Made by a program: the position numbers and the translations under genes
Part shown: in pieces, positions 34,108-41,399 of the stretch
Layout of the letters: every line of letters begins with the position of its first letter
Position numbering within the stretch: position 1 is the first letter of the stretch
Assembly (NCBI RefSeq): GCF_900450765.1
Contig: NZ_UGGU01000003.1
Span: 1,116,001-1,180,000, forward strand
Origin: Fusobacterium necrogenes
Lineage (GTDB): Bacteria; Fusobacteriota; Fusobacteriia; Fusobacteriales; Fusobacteriaceae
DNA length: 64,000 nucleotides
Reading direction: 5' to 3'
Notes under the pieces: generated by a model
The model's input: the letters and a program-made list of their open reading frames with translations, nothing else
Database searches by the model: none
What the model was told of the DNA's origin: nothing

Positions 34108-35628
34108 TTAATTATTAAAGATAAAAATATCATAAATATCCAAATTTCTATATGGACTTGGTAACTTAATCTTTACTTTTTCCCATAGTCTACTAAACTC
34201 TACTCTCCCCATATTTCTTATTCTAGTTACTATTTGTTTTTTATACAAAAGATTAACTCCACTACTACTTAATCCATTTAAAATATCATTTTGTAGTTCT
34301 TTAAAATTATTCTCATCTACACTTATCAATGAATAATAGTTAGCTAACAATCTCTTTTCTAAACAATACTCCATAGTAAATAATTTTCTTATAGAACTAG
34401 CAACAAAATCTAAATTCAATCTTAAAGTAAAATTTCCTTCACGTTCTCCTTCAGTTGCAATAAAGGGTAAAAAAACATTTTCAAAATGGTGGTTCTGTAT
34501 AGATTTAGTAAAAATTTTAAAATTATTAAAAAAAGAATTTTTTAAAATAACTCGTTTATTAAAATTCTCATCAACTAAATATGAAACTCCCAAATGCCTA
34601 AATAAAGAAAATGTCAAATCTTGTGAGTGTCCAAAATTAAATATATATTCTTTATAAACCACATTATCATTCACTCTCTTTATAAAATTTTCTGCTTTTT
34701 CTAATAACTCTCCCATATTTTCTAATTGAAATATCCTATCAAAGAAATTTTGTTTTAATATAAGACTTTTTCTTCTTTCGAGAGGTAATTTCATCATACA
34801 TTTTTCTAAATTTGTAGTTTTCAACAATCTTTTTATAAATCCTTCATCTATATCGAAAAATATAATTTCATCTTTCTCTACTAAAATTGTTTGTGTATCT
34901 TTTATTGCCTTTACTCTTTTCAATTCTTTAGCTAAAAACTCTAAATATGATTGATTAAATAAGGAAAATATTTCTCTTTCCTCTTTTTTTAAATCTGTTC
35001 TCTCCTTTAGTATTTTATCCAAATTTATATAGTCTAATACTGAAACAATTCCTTCTCTATTTATTCCTATTGCATTCCAAGTATATGTATATGGAATTAC
35101 ATTATACTTTCTATCAATAGAAAGAGCTACATATTGTGCTATTCCTCCTCCTAATGAGTGACCAGTTAAAGTTATACTCCTATGTGGAATTTTATCTATT
35201 TTTATTAGCTTTTGATAAACTTCAACCCCTTCATAAAATTGTTGTGGGATCTTTCCAAGTCCAATAGCTAAATCTGTTTCTATGAAATCTTTATAAGCAT
35301 CTTCTAAAGGAAATTTTTCACTTCCTCTATAAGCTACAACATAAGTCTCATCTTTTTCAAAAACTACTGAATAAAAACCTGAAGCTTCCTTTCCTGAAGA
35401 AGCCGTTCTATTATCTACATAGTAAATTTTCCAACTTTTCAAAATTTTTTTATAGTATTCATAAAATATCTTTCTATTCTTAGACAAAAAAATAGAGAAT
35501 GTCTCAGTTATAGAAGGGTTATTTTCAAAACTCTCAAATACCTCTTTGAGTGTTTTTCCACACTGACTTTTAGTAAAGTTATAATATGATAAAACACTTA
35601 AAAGTATATATTCCCTAACTGTTGTCAT
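34108..35628 (-). CDS. Class 3 lipase-like protein (Mbeg1/DUF2974-like)
   Basis: A 506-residue protein with an alpha/beta-hydrolase core. It has the oxyanion-type AYRGSE at 99-104 and the nucleophile elbow GHSLGG at 156-161 with Ser158. The rest is mostly helical and unrecognised. There is no signal peptide or membrane segment, so it would act in the cytoplasm. It resembles the class 3 lipase/DUF2974 (Mbeg1-like) family; acid and histidine partners are not certain. It is the last gene of the helicase-pgpH-ybeY-dgkA operon, 13 nt behind the DagK-PAP2 gene, which hints at phospholipid or acyl turnover, but the substrate is unknown. Confidence 0.7.
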   Translation of the reverse strand: MTTVREYILLSVLSYYNFTKSQCGKTLKEVFESFENNPSITETFSIFLSKNRKIFYEYYKKILKSWKIYYVDNRTASSGKEASGFYSVVFEKDETYVVAYRGSEKFPLEDAYKDFIETDLAIGLGKIPQQFYEGVEVYQKLIKIDKIPHRSITLTGHSLGGGIAQYVALSIDRKYNVIPYTYTWNAIGINREGIVSVLDYINLDKILKERTDLKKEEREIFSLFNQSYLEFLAKELKRVKAIKDTQTILVEKDEIIFFDIDEGFIKRLLKTTNLEKCMMKLPLERRKSLILKQNFFDRIFQLENMGELLEKAENFIKRVNDNVVYKEYIFNFGHSQDLTFSLFRHLGVSYLVDENFNKRVILKNSFFNNFKIFTKSIQNHHFENVFLPFIATEGEREGNFTLRLNLDFVASSIRKLFTMEYCLEKRLLANYYSLISVDENNFKELQNDILNGLSSSGVNLLYKKQIVTRIRNMGRVEFSRLWEKVKIKLPSPYRNLDIYDIFIFNN

Positions 35629-35641
35629 CTTCGCCTCCCTA

Positions 35642-36370
35642 TCATATTGCCACTAAAATCAAAATTAAATAAGTAATTGCCCAACCTAAAAAAGCACCTA
35701 TTAAAGTTTCGAAAAATGTATGTATCTTTCCTTCAATTCTAGAATGAATAACAAGTACAGTTAAAATAAAAGTTAGAAAAAATATTTTAGGATTATCTGT
35801 AAGAGCAGTTACTAAAGTTAATATAGAAGTAGCTAATGCACTATGTCCACTAGGAAATCCTCCCCTCAAAGCTGTTCCTTTTCCAGTTATAGCTTTTATA
35901 CATATAACAACAACTACTATTAATACAAAAATAGATAAAACAGTATGTTGATATGAGGCCTTCAAAAAAGAAAAAGCTTCTTTCATATTCAATATTATTC
36001 TCTTTTCAAAGACTATATACCCTACAAAAAGTGCGTTAATAGCTGTTATTAATACTGCACCAGCTGCTATATCTTTTGCTCTTTTTGCTAGTGGATGATA
36101 TTTTTCTGTAACCATATCTACACAACTCTCAATAGCTGTATTAAAAAGTTCAGCTAACCATATTAATGCAACACTGATAATTATAGCTATAGCATCATAT
36201 TTCCCTATATCCAAAAAAAGAGAAAAAATAAATACTATAATTGTGCAAAAACAATGAAATTTCATGTGTCTTTCTGTTCGAATGGTTTCAAATATTCCTT
36301 CAAAAGCTACGTTAAATTTCTCAGTAATTCCAATATTTTTCCATTTATTTCTCTCTTCCATTATCATCAC
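35642..36370 (-). CDS. DagK-type lipid kinase fused to a PAP2 phosphatase
   Basis: A 242-residue membrane protein of two parts. Residues about 14-120 are a small diacylglycerol/undecaprenol kinase (three helices, with LAELFNTAIESCVDMV and HPLAKRAKDIAAGAVL). Residues about 130-242 carry PAP2 phosphatase motifs: KGTALRGGFPSGHSA near 165-179 and SRIEGKIHTFFETLIGA near 210-226. The two halves have opposite reactions (lipid phosphorylation and dephosphorylation), so the protein may cycle undecaprenol and its phosphates. Its start overlaps the ybeY stop by 4 nt; ybeY next to dgkA is conserved in Firmicutes. Confidence 0.88.
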   Translation of the reverse strand: MMIMEERNKWKNIGITEKFNVAFEGIFETIRTERHMKFHCFCTIIVFIFSLFLDIGKYDAIAIIISVALIWLAELFNTAIESCVDMVTEKYHPLAKRAKDIAAGAVLITAINALFVGYIVFEKRIILNMKEAFSFLKASYQHTVLSIFVLIVVVVICIKAITGKGTALRGGFPSGHSALATSILTLVTALTDNPKIFFLTFILTVLVIHSRIEGKIHTFFETLIGAFLGWAITYLILILVAI

Positions 36371-36834
36371 ATCTCTCTAGTAAAGCCAGAATTACCTAAT
36401 AATTCTTCTTCTTTAGCTCTCATTTCTTTTTTACTATTTTCATCAATATGATCATATCCCAATAGATGTAAAATTCCATGAGTTAATACATAAAAAAACT
36501 CTCTTTTACTAGAATGATTGTATTCTTTTGCTTGTTCTTCTACTTTTTCTAAAGAAATAACAATGTCACCTAAAGTATCATATGGACCTATATCAAAATC
36601 TTCTGTTTCATGATAAGCAAAAGATATCACATCAGTAGGTTCATTCTTATCTCTATATTCCCTATTTATTATTTGAATCTCTTCATTACCTGTTAATAGA
36701 AGAGATATATATACCATTCCTTTACTCTCATACTCTTTTTCTAACACTTTTTGGATATATCCTCTTATCTCCTCTTCATTTACTAAATTATCAAAACCTT
36801 CTATCTCCAAAGACATCTCTAATACTACTTCCAT
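36367..36834 (-). CDS. ybeY: Endoribonuclease YbeY
   Basis: A 155-residue zinc-dependent ribosome-maturation nuclease with the signature HGILHLLGYDH (H-x3-H-x5-H) near residues 116-126 and the strand TDVISFAYHE near 57-66. It matures the 3' end of 16S rRNA and takes part in ribosome quality control. AAAGGAG precedes the ATG. It lies between pgpH (21 nt) and the kinase-phosphatase fusion (overlap). Confidence 0.95.
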   Translation of the reverse strand: MEVVLEMSLEIEGFDNLVNEEEIRGYIQKVLEKEYESKGMVYISLLLTGNEEIQIINREYRDKNEPTDVISFAYHETEDFDIGPYDTLGDIVISLEKVEEQAKEYNHSSKREFFYVLTHGILHLLGYDHIDENSKKEMRAKEEELLGNSGFTREM

Positions 36835-36855: not shown

Positions 36856-38928
36856 TTATTTTTGGCCCGGATATTTTATCCTTACATGATGTATACTCAC
36901 TAATGTTTTTATAAAAACTCTAATTATTATTTCTATCTCTTTAAATGTTAGATTAGCTTCTGATAGCTGATTATCTTCTATTTTACCATTGATAATCTTT
37001 CTTATCATATTCTCCATAGTTATTGGATTTTTTTCATCTAATGACCTTATAGCTGCTTCAATAGAATCCGCTAACATTATTATAGCAGACTCTTTTGTCT
37101 TAGGTTTAGGCCCACTATATCTAAATTCCTCTTTCTCAACATTTGGATCTAATTTTTTAGCTGCATTATAGAAATAGGCTAAAAAACTCGTTCCTTGATG
37201 CTCATACATTATATCCCTTATTTCTTTAGGAATTTGATAGTCTTTTGCCATCTCCGCTCCATCCTTAGTATGAGATGTAATTATTAATGTACTCATAAAT
37301 GGAGATATTCTATTATGTGGATTTTCTCCATTCTGCTGATTTTCTATATAAAATTTTGGTCGTTTAGTCTTTCCTAAATCATGATAATATGAAGCTACTC
37401 TACAAAATACTGCATTCGCTCCTATTGCAGCAGCAGCATTTTCTGAAAGAGTTGCTACCATTACAGAGTGTTGAAAAGTTCCTGGAGCTTCAACTGATAT
37501 CTTCTTTAACAAAGGATGAGATAAATCTCCTAACTCTAATAATCTAAATATTGTTAAAATATTAAAAGTTCTTTCAAAATATGGTAAAAATGCTATTGTT
37601 AACATTCCAGAAATAAGTCCTGACAGTAAAATAGAACCAGATGTTATAGCAGTTGTAAATCTTTCTATCTCTGAAAAATATGAAAATAATAAGTATATTC
37701 CTACTTTTAAAATTGATAACTGTACTCCAGCAGCTATGATACCAGAACGAGTATTTATTTTAGATACTATGTTAGCAGCAAAAGAAATAGCTATAAAATA
37801 CATAGTAAAAAATTTTAAATCAAAATTTAATATTGGCATCAAAAAAAATAACATAAATGAAAATAGTGAGGTTGCATAATTTTTTCCAACTAAGAGTATT
37901 AATAAGAAAAAAGCGGTATCTGCGGGTAAAAGATACATTAAATCATTGTTAAATACTCTAAAAGCTACAAGTGTTCCTACTAAAATTAAAAGAGAAGATC
38001 TATAATAATTCTTATTTAAAATTACTTTTCTATAATTATTAAAAAATAAGCCATAAAAAAGTGAAGAAATAATTCCTAAATATATTATATTAGCAAAGAT
38101 GAGAGCAAAACTTTTCTTATATGAATAAACTCCACTTGCTTCTAAAATCTTTATTCTTCTCTCGTTTAAAATCTCTCCAGTTTTAGCTAATAATGTTCCA
38201 GCTTTTATCTCTACATATTGATCTTTTATTTGAGAAACTTTCTCTTGAATATTTTTTTTAGTTTTTACTTCATCATATATAAAATTTGGTGTAGTAAATA
38301 TGTCAGCAATATTTTTTTCTAATAAGGTTAAATTTTCATATTCTCTTCTTATATCTTCTGGATAAAAAATTTCATTTTTCTCTTTAACAATCCCTTCTTT
38401 ATATGCTTTTTCTAAAAAAGATCTTATCTTTTTTTCTAAATTTTCTATTTCATACAACTCCAAAACCAGTATATTATTAACAAGTACAGTTGAAATTTTT
38501 TTATTAGTATTTCTCTCAATTTTTCCATACTCTATATCTTCTATATTGCTATTTTTTTTCAAATATATATTGCTGAAAAATTCATCAAAGTAATCTAAAT
38601 ATAACTTTTCTGCATCTGATGAAAATATATACTCTTTCCCGGATTCTCTTATCATATCTTCAATTATTTTCTCTTTTGCACTATCATCTTTAAAAATAAT
38701 AGTATTAGGGGCATAAATATCAGCCCTTACAATATCCCCTATTTTATAATTATTTTGATTTGAAATAAGAGATATCTTAGAAGAAAAAGCTATAATAAAC
38801 ATGATCAAAATCATATAAATTAACTTTTCTCTCAATGAATAATCACTTGAGTAAATATTTTCATCACTATACTTATTTCTTTTTATCTCAAACTGAAGTT
38901 TTAAGCCAAAGAGATTTATTGTTTTCAT
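36856..38928 (-). CDS. pgpH: 7TM-HD family cyclic-di-AMP phosphodiesterase (PgpH-like)
   Basis: A 690-residue protein: an N-terminal helix (about 36-54), a large extracytoplasmic 7TMR-HDED domain (about 55-270), seven helices (about 275-460), and a cytoplasmic HD domain. The HD domain has HSVMVATLSENAAAAIGA and YYHDLGKTKRP near 487-520 and a second HTKDGAEMAK segment. In Firmicutes PgpH hydrolyses c-di-AMP; the operon position before ybeY and dgkA is identical. Its ATG overlaps the stop of the helicase gene by one base. Confidence 0.93.
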   Translation of the reverse strand: MKTINLFGLKLQFEIKRNKYSDENIYSSDYSLREKLIYMILIMFIIAFSSKISLISNQNNYKIGDIVRADIYAPNTIIFKDDSAKEKIIEDMIRESGKEYIFSSDAEKLYLDYFDEFFSNIYLKKNSNIEDIEYGKIERNTNKKISTVLVNNILVLELYEIENLEKKIRSFLEKAYKEGIVKEKNEIFYPEDIRREYENLTLLEKNIADIFTTPNFIYDEVKTKKNIQEKVSQIKDQYVEIKAGTLLAKTGEILNERRIKILEASGVYSYKKSFALIFANIIYLGIISSLFYGLFFNNYRKVILNKNYYRSSLLILVGTLVAFRVFNNDLMYLLPADTAFFLLILLVGKNYATSLFSFMLFFLMPILNFDLKFFTMYFIAISFAANIVSKINTRSGIIAAGVQLSILKVGIYLLFSYFSEIERFTTAITSGSILLSGLISGMLTIAFLPYFERTFNILTIFRLLELGDLSHPLLKKISVEAPGTFQHSVMVATLSENAAAAIGANAVFCRVASYYHDLGKTKRPKFYIENQQNGENPHNRISPFMSTLIITSHTKDGAEMAKDYQIPKEIRDIMYEHQGTSFLAYFYNAAKKLDPNVEKEEFRYSGPKPKTKESAIIMLADSIEAAIRSLDEKNPITMENMIRKIINGKIEDNQLSEANLTFKEIEIIIRVFIKTLVSIHHVRIKYPGQK

Positions 38929-41399
38929 TATTCTCCTCCTTTCGTGCTCTTAGAGATATCCTCTAATATCTCACTCCTACTTAAAATTTTTATATTTTTA
39001 GTAGGTATGGAGTCTACAAAATATTTTCCATATTTCTTCATAATGACTCTATTGTCTAATATAGTTATTGTTCCTGAATCTGTCTTACTTCTAATGAGTC
39101 TTCCTATTCCCTGCTTAAATTTGATAACTGCCTCTGGAATTTGATATTCAGTAAAAGAGTTTTTCCCTTGAGCAGTTATATGCTCAATTATTGCCTCTGT
39201 AACTGGGTCACTAGGAACTTTGAAAGGTAGCTTTATTAAAATTACATTACTTAATTGATGTCCCTTAATATCTACTCCTTCCCAGAAAGAGTCTGTTCCA
39301 AATAATACAGGATTTTTTCCATTGATATACATATTTACAAGTTGACTACGAGGAGCCATTCCGTGAATAAATAACTCTATCCCATTAGCTTCTAACTCAT
39401 CTCTTATCATATAGTATACATAATTTAATGTTTGATAAGATGTAAAAAGCACAAAGGTTTTTCCTCTTGATACTATCAGCTGAGTTTTTAAATATTCTGA
39501 AATCTCATCTATAAAATTTTTATCTGATGGATTTGGAATATCATTTGGTATATATACTTTCATCTGATTATCATAATCAAATGGAGAGTGTATTACTTTG
39601 TCTAAAGTATTTTTATCTAAACCAATTGACTCTTTAAAATATGTAAAATCATTTCCTATTGCTATTGTAGCTGAAGTAAAAATTATCTGATTTAAATTTA
39701 GATAAAGATTCTTTTGTAACTCTCCATCTATTTTTAGAGGTGTTGCTACTAGTTTTGAATTACTTTTTCTGCTATTTACCTCTATCCAATAGATAAACTC
39801 CTCATCTGAAAAATCGTGTATAAATCTAAAATTATTTATAAATCCATCTAGTCTATCAATATATTTTGAAAAATCATTGATATGACCTAGCCTATCCTCT
39901 TCATCTTTTAACTCTTTTATTAGCTCTCTTACTTTTCTATTGTAGGAATTATACTCACTTAAAAATTTATCCTTAAAATCATTTAGAGTATTTAAAAATG
40001 GAGAGTTTTCCATCTCCTCTTTTCTAGCACGGAAAGTAAATGTTCCCATCTCCCCCTTAGAAAATACTTCAATAATATGGTTGAAATACTCTCTTCCTGC
40101 TATATAAAGAGATTTATGTTTAAGTTTTATCTCCTCTATCTCTCTTTCTAAAATTCCATGATTATCTAATTCTTCACTCTTTATATGTTTTAAAACAAAG
40201 TCTAAAGCTCCTGTATTTTTTTTCTTCCCCTCTGTTATAAAAATCTGGTTCATAGTTTTGGTAAAGCTATATTTAGAAGCTTCATAAGAAAAATAATCCC
40301 TAGCTACCTTTTCTATGTTGTGAGCCTCATCAAAAACAACTAATCCATATTCTGGTAGAATAGAGTATTCTGTATTAAATCCTATCTCTTTTCTAATAGC
40401 CAAATCTGAGAAATACATATGATGATTTGTTATTAAAATATCAGCTTTCTTTTTCTCATCTCTTGACTTTAAAAAGAAACACTCATTTTTATATGGACAC
40501 TTATTTCCAGAACACATATCTGTTTCACTTTGAAATAACTCCCATATAGTATTATCAGCTTCAAATGTAAGTTCAGCCTTATCTCCAGTTTCTGTTTGAT
40601 TACCCCATTTTATAATCTCAGCAAACTGATTTTTTTGAGAAGTAGTAAAATCTTCTAAAAGAGATTTATCTCCCATAACTACATTGTGATATTTTCTATT
40701 ACAGAGATAGTTTCCTCTACCTTTTACAAGAATATATTTAAAATCTCCCTGTATAACTCTTTTTGCTATTGGAATATCTTTATTTAAAAGTTGCTCCTGT
40801 AAATTTATAGTATTAGTAGAGATTACAACTCTTTTTTTATTTTTTATTGCCCACTCAATACTTGGAATAAGATAAGCTAATGTTTTTCCTGTTCCTGTCC
40901 CTGCTTCTACTATAACAGAAGTTTCCTCATTCAATCCTTTTTCTATATGAAGTGCCATATCTAATTGCTCATTTCTATATTCATAACCTTTAAATACCTG
41001 GGAAAGCAGTCCTGTTTTTTCAAAATATGACCCTGTATCAATTTTTATATTTTCATCTTTAAAAAGTTCTACTATCACATATATATCATTTAAATCATTA
41101 TTGACTATATATGAAGCTCCATCCATCTTATTTGAATAAATAGAAGCTATCTCAACATCAGCATCTGATGGATATAAAAATCCTGAAGGATGATTGTGTA
41201 TTATTACCTCTCCTTTTCTCATAATTTTTAAAATAGCTGGAACTGAATACTCATTTCCCCTAGCTAGAACCTGTACCTGTGTAACTACTCCATTTTTATC
41301 TGGAATTCCTCTAAAAAAAATTTCATTTCCTTGAGCTTTTTTTATCTCATCATACATAACTTGTCTAGCTTCTAAAGAGATTTTCTCTTTTATATCCAT
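38928..41399 (-). CDS. JAMM (JAB) domain fused to a DinG-family FeS helicase
   Basis: An 823-residue chain. Residues about 1-118 form a JAB/MPN metalloprotease-like domain with all JAMM residues in place: Glu26, His68 and His70 in HNHPSG, Ser78 and Asp81. From about 130 onward it is a DinG/XPD-type superfamily 2 helicase. The helicase has Walker A EAGTGTGKT at 165-173, four FeS cysteines (NYLC, then MCSGNKC and NEC), the DEAH box FDEAHN, and C-terminal motifs such as GTDSFWEGVDI and QGIGRLIRS. DinG unwinds forked or R-loop DNA. The JAMM part resembles RadC more than deubiquitinases. DinG proteins usually carry an exonuclease here (Firmicutes) or nothing. It is the first gene of its operon. 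Confidence 0.88.
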   Translation of the reverse strand: MDIKEKISLEARQVMYDEIKKAQGNEIFFRGIPDKNGVVTQVQVLARGNEYSVPAILKIMRKGEVIIHNHPSGFLYPSDADVEIASIYSNKMDGASYIVNNDLNDIYVIVELFKDENIKIDTGSYFEKTGLLSQVFKGYEYRNEQLDMALHIEKGLNEETSVIVEAGTGTGKTLAYLIPSIEWAIKNKKRVVISTNTINLQEQLLNKDIPIAKRVIQGDFKYILVKGRGNYLCNRKYHNVVMGDKSLLEDFTTSQKNQFAEIIKWGNQTETGDKAELTFEADNTIWELFQSETDMCSGNKCPYKNECFFLKSRDEKKKADILITNHHMYFSDLAIRKEIGFNTEYSILPEYGLVVFDEAHNIEKVARDYFSYEASKYSFTKTMNQIFITEGKKKNTGALDFVLKHIKSEELDNHGILEREIEEIKLKHKSLYIAGREYFNHIIEVFSKGEMGTFTFRARKEEMENSPFLNTLNDFKDKFLSEYNSYNRKVRELIKELKDEEDRLGHINDFSKYIDRLDGFINNFRFIHDFSDEEFIYWIEVNSRKSNSKLVATPLKIDGELQKNLYLNLNQIIFTSATIAIGNDFTYFKESIGLDKNTLDKVIHSPFDYDNQMKVYIPNDIPNPSDKNFIDEISEYLKTQLIVSRGKTFVLFTSYQTLNYVYYMIRDELEANGIELFIHGMAPRSQLVNMYINGKNPVLFGTDSFWEGVDIKGHQLSNVILIKLPFKVPSDPVTEAIIEHITAQGKNSFTEYQIPEAVIKFKQGIGRLIRSKTDSGTITILDNRVIMKKYGKYFVDSIPTKNIKILSRSEILEDISKSTKGGE

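Follow-up and report, generated by a model that had tools for sequence, protein, structure and literature searches.

A gene in the window (the whole stretch of DNA analysed, 64 000 nucleotides from Fusobacterium necrogenes, contig NZ_UGGU01000003.1) encodes a member of RadC-like DinG, a known, unstudied subgroup of FeS helicases with a JAMM-type domain ahead of the motor. What is new here is the behaviour of the presumed metal site of this domain, whose five residues are invariant in 114 intact domains, and which has repeatedly decayed in lineages where the domain and the helicase were kept.

The fusion itself was already known. A sequence-only reading of the same DNA, which stated that DinG proteins normally carry an N-terminal exonuclease or no domain there at all, was outdated on this point, and the idea of the fusion as new is corrected here, since the available text of a recent review (Cheng, 2025; PMC11981726) distinguishes ten DinG subgroups, including endonuclease, pseudo-exonuclease and 'RadC-like DinG' forms. 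Fusions of RadC to DinG/RAD3-like helicases had also been noted by Iyer et al. (2017; PMC5512222). The model protein of the subgroup in section 3.8 of the review is from Desulfuromonas soudanensis and was modelled with zinc, and the review itself states that no research has been done on RadC-like DinG. As described in that part of the review, the subgroup shares with the present protein an N-terminal RadC-like domain with an E, H, H, D centre followed by a YoaA-like FeS helicase, a complete DinG/YoaA helicase with its FeS cysteines, fold relatives that include the metalloproteases PfJAMM1 and CsRpn11, and a genome without HolC. The review also reports a YoaA-type C-terminal alpha7 helix in MD2; a C-terminal helix (residues 808-820) is predicted in our full-length model. 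In contrast, the available text does not include Fusobacteria, and it describes high conservation. Section 3.8 contains no description of pseudo-JAMM or domain-less forms, and a text search of the openly accessible literature did not turn up pseudo-JAMM forms either.

Gene, neighbourhood and helicase

The open reading frame proposed from the sequence is real and its coordinates are exact (Table 1); it lies on the minus strand (41399..38928), which the earlier reading had left unstated. The nearest named relative retrieved is a protein of Fusobacterium mortiferum An814, with 91.5% identity over the full protein.

Table 1. Features of the RadC-like DinG gene and of its operon partners (positions in the window).
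Feature	Position	Strand	Basis or remark
RadC-like DinG/YoaA helicase gene	38928..41399	-	823 aa; ATG start codon at 41399-41397
N-terminal RadC-like JAMM domain (predicted), residues 1-112	41064..41399	-	AlphaFold2, Foldseek, VIA (aligned about 4-114)
Glu26, presumed general acid-base of the JAMM site	41322..41324	-	Conservation; analogy with AfJAMM E22 (PMC300881)
His68-Asn69-His70, presumed zinc ligands	41190..41198	-	Conservation; analogy with AfJAMM H67/H69 (PMC300881)
Ser78-x-x-Asp81, presumed oxyanion stabiliser and third zinc ligand	41157..41168	-	Conservation; analogy with AfJAMM S77/D80 (PMC300881)
Linker between JAMM domain and helicase, residues 113-136	40992..41063	-	pLDDT dip at 111-140 of the domain model
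YoaA/DinG-type superfamily 2 FeS helicase, residues 137-803	38991..40991	-	NCBIfam, PDB sequence comparison, Foldseek
Walker A GTGTGKT, residues 167-173	40881..40901	-	T168 and K172 invariant in 61/61 homologues
FeS-cluster cysteine stretch: C233, C296, C301, C307	40479..40703	-	Sequence and homologue alignment
DEAH box, residues 357-360	40320..40331	-	Sequence and homologue alignment
pgpH-like 7TMR-HD gene	36856..38928	-	1-base overlap with helicase stop; Pfam, neighbourhood comparison
ybeY	36367..36834	-	Next gene in the same apparent operon

The order helicase gene, pgpH, ybeY is usual in Fusobacteriota, and rpsT often flanks the helicase gene on its opposite side; outside this phylum, neither these genes nor other neighbours in the window were found to recur beside the fusion gene. 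Downstream of the operon lies a 506-aa gene (34108-35628, minus strand) with a weak Lipase_3 match only, which stands beside ybeY in some relatives. An origin from a mobile element or a defence system was rejected on account of the housekeeping neighbours pgpH, ybeY and rpsT in Fusobacteriota. A search of a viral collection retrieved RadC-type JABs, none of them with a fused helicase, and among plasmid records the one full-length match lay on a Fusobacterium vincentii record of chromosome size. This record (NZ_CP084075.1, 2.1 Mb, listed as plasmid pSB055A) carries both the helicase gene and pgpH, so it seems to be a chromosome deposited under a plasmid label. LexA-dependent SOS control was also rejected: the genome gave no PF01726 match, and the only promoter-like site seen was weak.

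All the elements of a full FeS helicase that had been read from the sequence, namely the four cysteines, the Walker A motif and the DEAH box, were found. The cysteines are conserved among 61 homologues (C233 in 54, C296 in 60, C301 and C307 in all 61), and the Pfam matches in the protein are Helicase_C_2, DEAD_2 and a borderline RadC. The designation of the helicase as DinG-type stands as far as the FeS DinG family is concerned, but the YoaA model NF053712 scores higher (583 bits, under its 680-bit cut-off) than the DinG models (432-507 bits), and on these profile scores the helicase is nearer to YoaA than to DinG. The full-length model (pLDDT 90.5, pTM 0.86) had E. coli DinG (6fwr) as its best Foldseek match (E 4.6e-40). 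E. coli YoaA and DinG share the FeS helicase core with the present protein but have no JAMM domain; moreover, HolC (PF04364), the partner of YoaA, was absent from the F. necrogenes genome. Identification as CasDinG of type IV CRISPR systems was rejected, considering the TIGR03117 score (122 of 400 bits), the presence of the FeS cysteines and the housekeeping neighbours; the PADLOC typeIV_DinG models match the helicase generically.

The N-terminal JAMM domain

As had been claimed from the sequence, the domain carries a complete JAMM set (E26, H68, H70, S78 and D81) with the proper spacing (H-x-H-x7-S-x2-D), which is that of AfJAMM. The sequence follows the JAMM/MPN+ pattern E-xn-H-(S/T)-H-x7-S-x-x-D with Asn69 as the middle residue, and the Ser between the two His may be Asn in distant JAMM relatives (PMC300881).

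With the RadC family PF04002, whose cut-off is 22.1 bits, the match reached 19.5 bits with the full-length protein and 22.4 bits in the genome search, and the PRK00024 score was 18.0 against a cut-off of 180. In an alignment of 13 Fusobacteriota sequences, each one matched PF04002 at E <= 1 (lowest value 3.9e-8), and the profile-profile probability was 98.7% over 85 columns. The AlphaFold2 model of residues 1-140, built with 68 related sequences (mean pLDDT 92.2), predicts a JAMM/RadC fold, i.e. the JAB fold of JAMM/MPN+ metallopeptidases. For this model Foldseek ranked RadC first (2QLC, E 1.4e-4), and the next matches were JAMM proteins, Rpn11 and AMSH-like ones among them. Structural realignment gave Z values of 11.0 for BubCD, 10.5 for CsRpn11, 10.4 for PfJAMM1, 9.0 for AF2198 and 8.9 for RadC, differences under 1 being ties.

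The likeness to RadC that had been noticed thus holds for the fold and for the HNHPSG motif, which continues as HNHPSG-x-x-x-PS-x-x-D in both. It does not extend further: the RadC consensus runs on with L-D-H-x-I where the fused domain has I-x-x-N, the fused domain has an ARGN motif at 46-49, and genomes with the fused gene have separate RadC genes as well. Judged from these sequence features, the fused domain would be a sister of RadC, not RadC itself. Separate RadC genes are near-universal in Fusobacteriota, and since this holds for every state of the fused domain, a trade-off between the two was rejected. With the JAMM/MPN+ peptidases (AfJAMM, PfJAMM1, CsRpn11, Rpn11, BubCD) the domain shares the fold and the five motif residues, but identity is 13-23%, Asn replaces Ser/Thr between the two His, and no ubiquitin-like partner of the fused domain is known. 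Another RadC-type JAB of the same genome is found on a 34-kb contig (451-2481, minus strand), in a 676-aa protein where it is followed by the metallopeptidase motif HEIAHSTGH; it resembles the polyvalent proteins of conjugative elements.

Nine positions (E26, G48, H68, N69, H70, P71, S78, D81 and I98) are 100% conserved in the 114 intact domains. It should be noted that many of these were retrieved with a pattern requiring HNHPSG, so that the two His are partly selected, while S78 and D81 are not; the motif was not required in the searches of Fusobacteriota, Spirochaetota, Desulfuromonadia and Gemmatimonadota. The identity of E, H, H, S and D in 114/114 intact homologues places the motif beyond chance.

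Distribution of the fusion and decay of its metal site

A domain search showed the fusion to be widespread in Fusobacteriota, where it was counted from the search listing in 82 of 98 genomes, with 11 more having the helicase without the fused domain. Among whole genomes sampled from other groups, and counted likewise, it was present in about 104 of 247 Spirochaetota, 90 of 121 Gemmatimonadota and 115 of 117 Desulfuromonadia, two of the last being weak or truncated matches. A scan of the whole collection located it in Geobacter-type Desulfuromonadia, Treponema and other Spirochaetota, Gemmatimonadota, KSB1, Dadabacteria, Halanaerobiaceae and others.

That two separate genes had been joined through a sequencing error, an objection already foreseen in the sequence-only reading, can be regarded as refuted, because the fusion is a single open frame in dozens of independent assemblies from several phyla; nothing speaks for it beyond one broken frame in each of two genomes. 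In these, G027 and G077, the helicase frame is split into three and two pieces respectively, through sequencing error or real decay. In one Gemmatimonadota genome (G480) the fused domain occurs twice, on separate contigs. Several Gemmatimonadota and Geobacter-type loci (L169, L200, L207, L208, L213 and others) have open frames of 1000-1360 aa, in which the JAMM domain is preceded by as many as some 400 residues; these may be an extra N-terminal domain or just open frame in GC-rich DNA.

Decay of the presumed zinc site is seen in five or more lineages, spread over four phyla, in which the domain, the reading frame and the helicase motifs are kept. In the F. vincentii type and three relatives (lineage 1), E26 is replaced by S, H68 by R or K, and H70 by A or T; in three genomes of one other Fusobacteriota genus (lineage 2), E26 is replaced by D, H68 by R and H70 by Y. 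Lineages 3 to 5 are represented by one genome each, and came from several hundred fusions, among which the lowest-scoring ones of Spirochaetota, Desulfuromonadia and Gemmatimonadota were deliberately read for site residues. The Spirochaetota genome has S for H68, its Glu being gone; the Gemmatimonadota genome has R for E26, L for H68 and Q for H70; and the Desulfuromonadia genome keeps the His but has A for E26, T for S78 and E for D81. Since the phyla differ and, within Fusobacteriota, the tree requires two changes to the decayed state, these are five separate events. The tree also requires two losses of the whole domain with retention of the helicase, both in Fusobacteriota; one such genus is the sister of lineage 1.

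The Glu is lost in all five lineages, and further positions that are otherwise invariant (G48, N69 and largely N101) are also changed, while L75, P77 and I98 are mostly retained. The helicase motifs are intact in the decayed and the domain-less forms, apart from single cysteine changes. Pairwise dN/dS values are 0.12-0.27 for the decayed domains of lineages 1 and 2 and 0.12-0.35 for intact ones; with dS near saturation in several pairs these are rough values, which indicate continuing constraint but not its exact strength. In the two lineages that could be tested, the decayed domain is still under purifying selection.

Because the site decays with the domain kept, and the domain is lost with the helicase kept, the metal site and the remaining domain are under separate selection; and because several lineages live without the site, its activity is not essential. 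These data provide new evidence that the site matters, being invariant in intact forms, and yet is dispensable, being repeatedly lost elsewhere. The closest precedent for such pseudo-JAMM forms is pExoDinG beside ExoDinG, an inactive-looking version of an accessory N-terminal domain ahead of the same helicase, although the domain in that case is of the DnaQ or DEDDy type. A search for a DnaQ-type domain elsewhere gave one PF00929 match, within a 1476-aa frame.

Alternatively, the domain could serve chiefly for structure or protein docking, as inactive MPN subunits do, with the zinc site stabilising the fold or having a minor activity. The five or more losses of the site from a domain that is kept, and is under purifying selection where tested, would fit this explanation, as would the two losses of the whole domain in Fusobacteriota. 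We consider it unlikely, considering that E26 and S78, which are not zinc ligands in the AfJAMM model, are nonetheless invariant in intact domains, and that the site residues decay together, as expected for loss of a site function and not of a stabiliser.

Putative function

Our preferred reading, held tentatively and with somewhat less than even confidence, is that of a bifunctional chromosomal genome-maintenance enzyme, in which an FeS helicase is combined with a single-zinc JAMM hydrolase, an amide-type bond being the likeliest target, and in which the domain has a second, non-catalytic role. DinG/YoaA-family FeS helicases act 5'-3' on single-stranded DNA and open forks, D-loops or R-loops, and the helicase part would be expected to do the same. 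The zinc would be held by H68, H70 and D81, water would be activated by E26, and the tetrahedral intermediate would be stabilised by S78; the bond attacked might be, for example, in a protein on or near the DNA exposed by the motor. The rest of the domain would dock, stabilise or regulate the helicase, and it is its retention after loss of the site that suggests a role of this kind. In AfJAMM, two His and an Asp hold the zinc, the Glu is the presumed acid-base and the Ser flanks the oxyanion hole (PMC300881). Glu and Ser would be unnecessary for a structural zinc, so the invariance of both points to catalysis on an amide-type bond. Counting against a hydrolase, AfJAMM itself showed no activity towards the substrates assayed (PMC300881). 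No substrate, ubiquitin-like partner or linked gene for the JAMM domain was found, and a literature search for RadC activity gave nothing useful. To our knowledge, no activity or function has been established for any RadC-type JAB/JAMM domain, which also counts against the hydrolase.

A different role in the processing of nucleic acids, as a nuclease or in end-cleaning, was proposed by Iyer et al. (2017; PMC5512222), who stated that RadC JABs are without the groove for a ubiquitin tail. The JAMM domain occupies the position of the exonuclease of ExoDinG, whose pseudo-exonuclease relatives (pExoDinG) parallel the pseudo-JAMM forms described here. Yet a single zinc with a Glu base and a Ser at the oxyanion would be peptidase- or deaminase-type, not typical phosphodiesterase, chemistry, and no nuclease was among the listed structural matches, an absence that proves nothing; all considered, a nucleic-acid role seems to us rather unlikely, if worth keeping in mind. 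Between this role and action on a protein or adduct at stalled forks, which the sequence-only reading had suggested, the computed evidence does not discriminate. Zinc-dependent deamination or hydrolysis of nucleotides or bases is very improbable: the JAMM and cytidine deaminase folds are indeed alike, but their zinc ligands are wholly different (His, His and Asp versus three Cys; PMC300881), and no deaminase motif was seen.

The hydrolase reading can be sharpened into a more specific and quite doubtful proposal, namely that RadC-like DinG is a helicase-coupled metallopeptidase which, at damaged forks or R-loops, cuts a protein that unwinding has exposed, and which in the F. vincentii group and elsewhere has turned into a pseudo-enzyme scaffold. 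If true, this would be the first function for RadC-type JAMM domains. Such a domain is here tied to a helicase of known family role, and because a single phylum holds close relatives with an intact site, with a decayed site and with no domain, the role of RadC-type JAMM domains is open to direct comparison.
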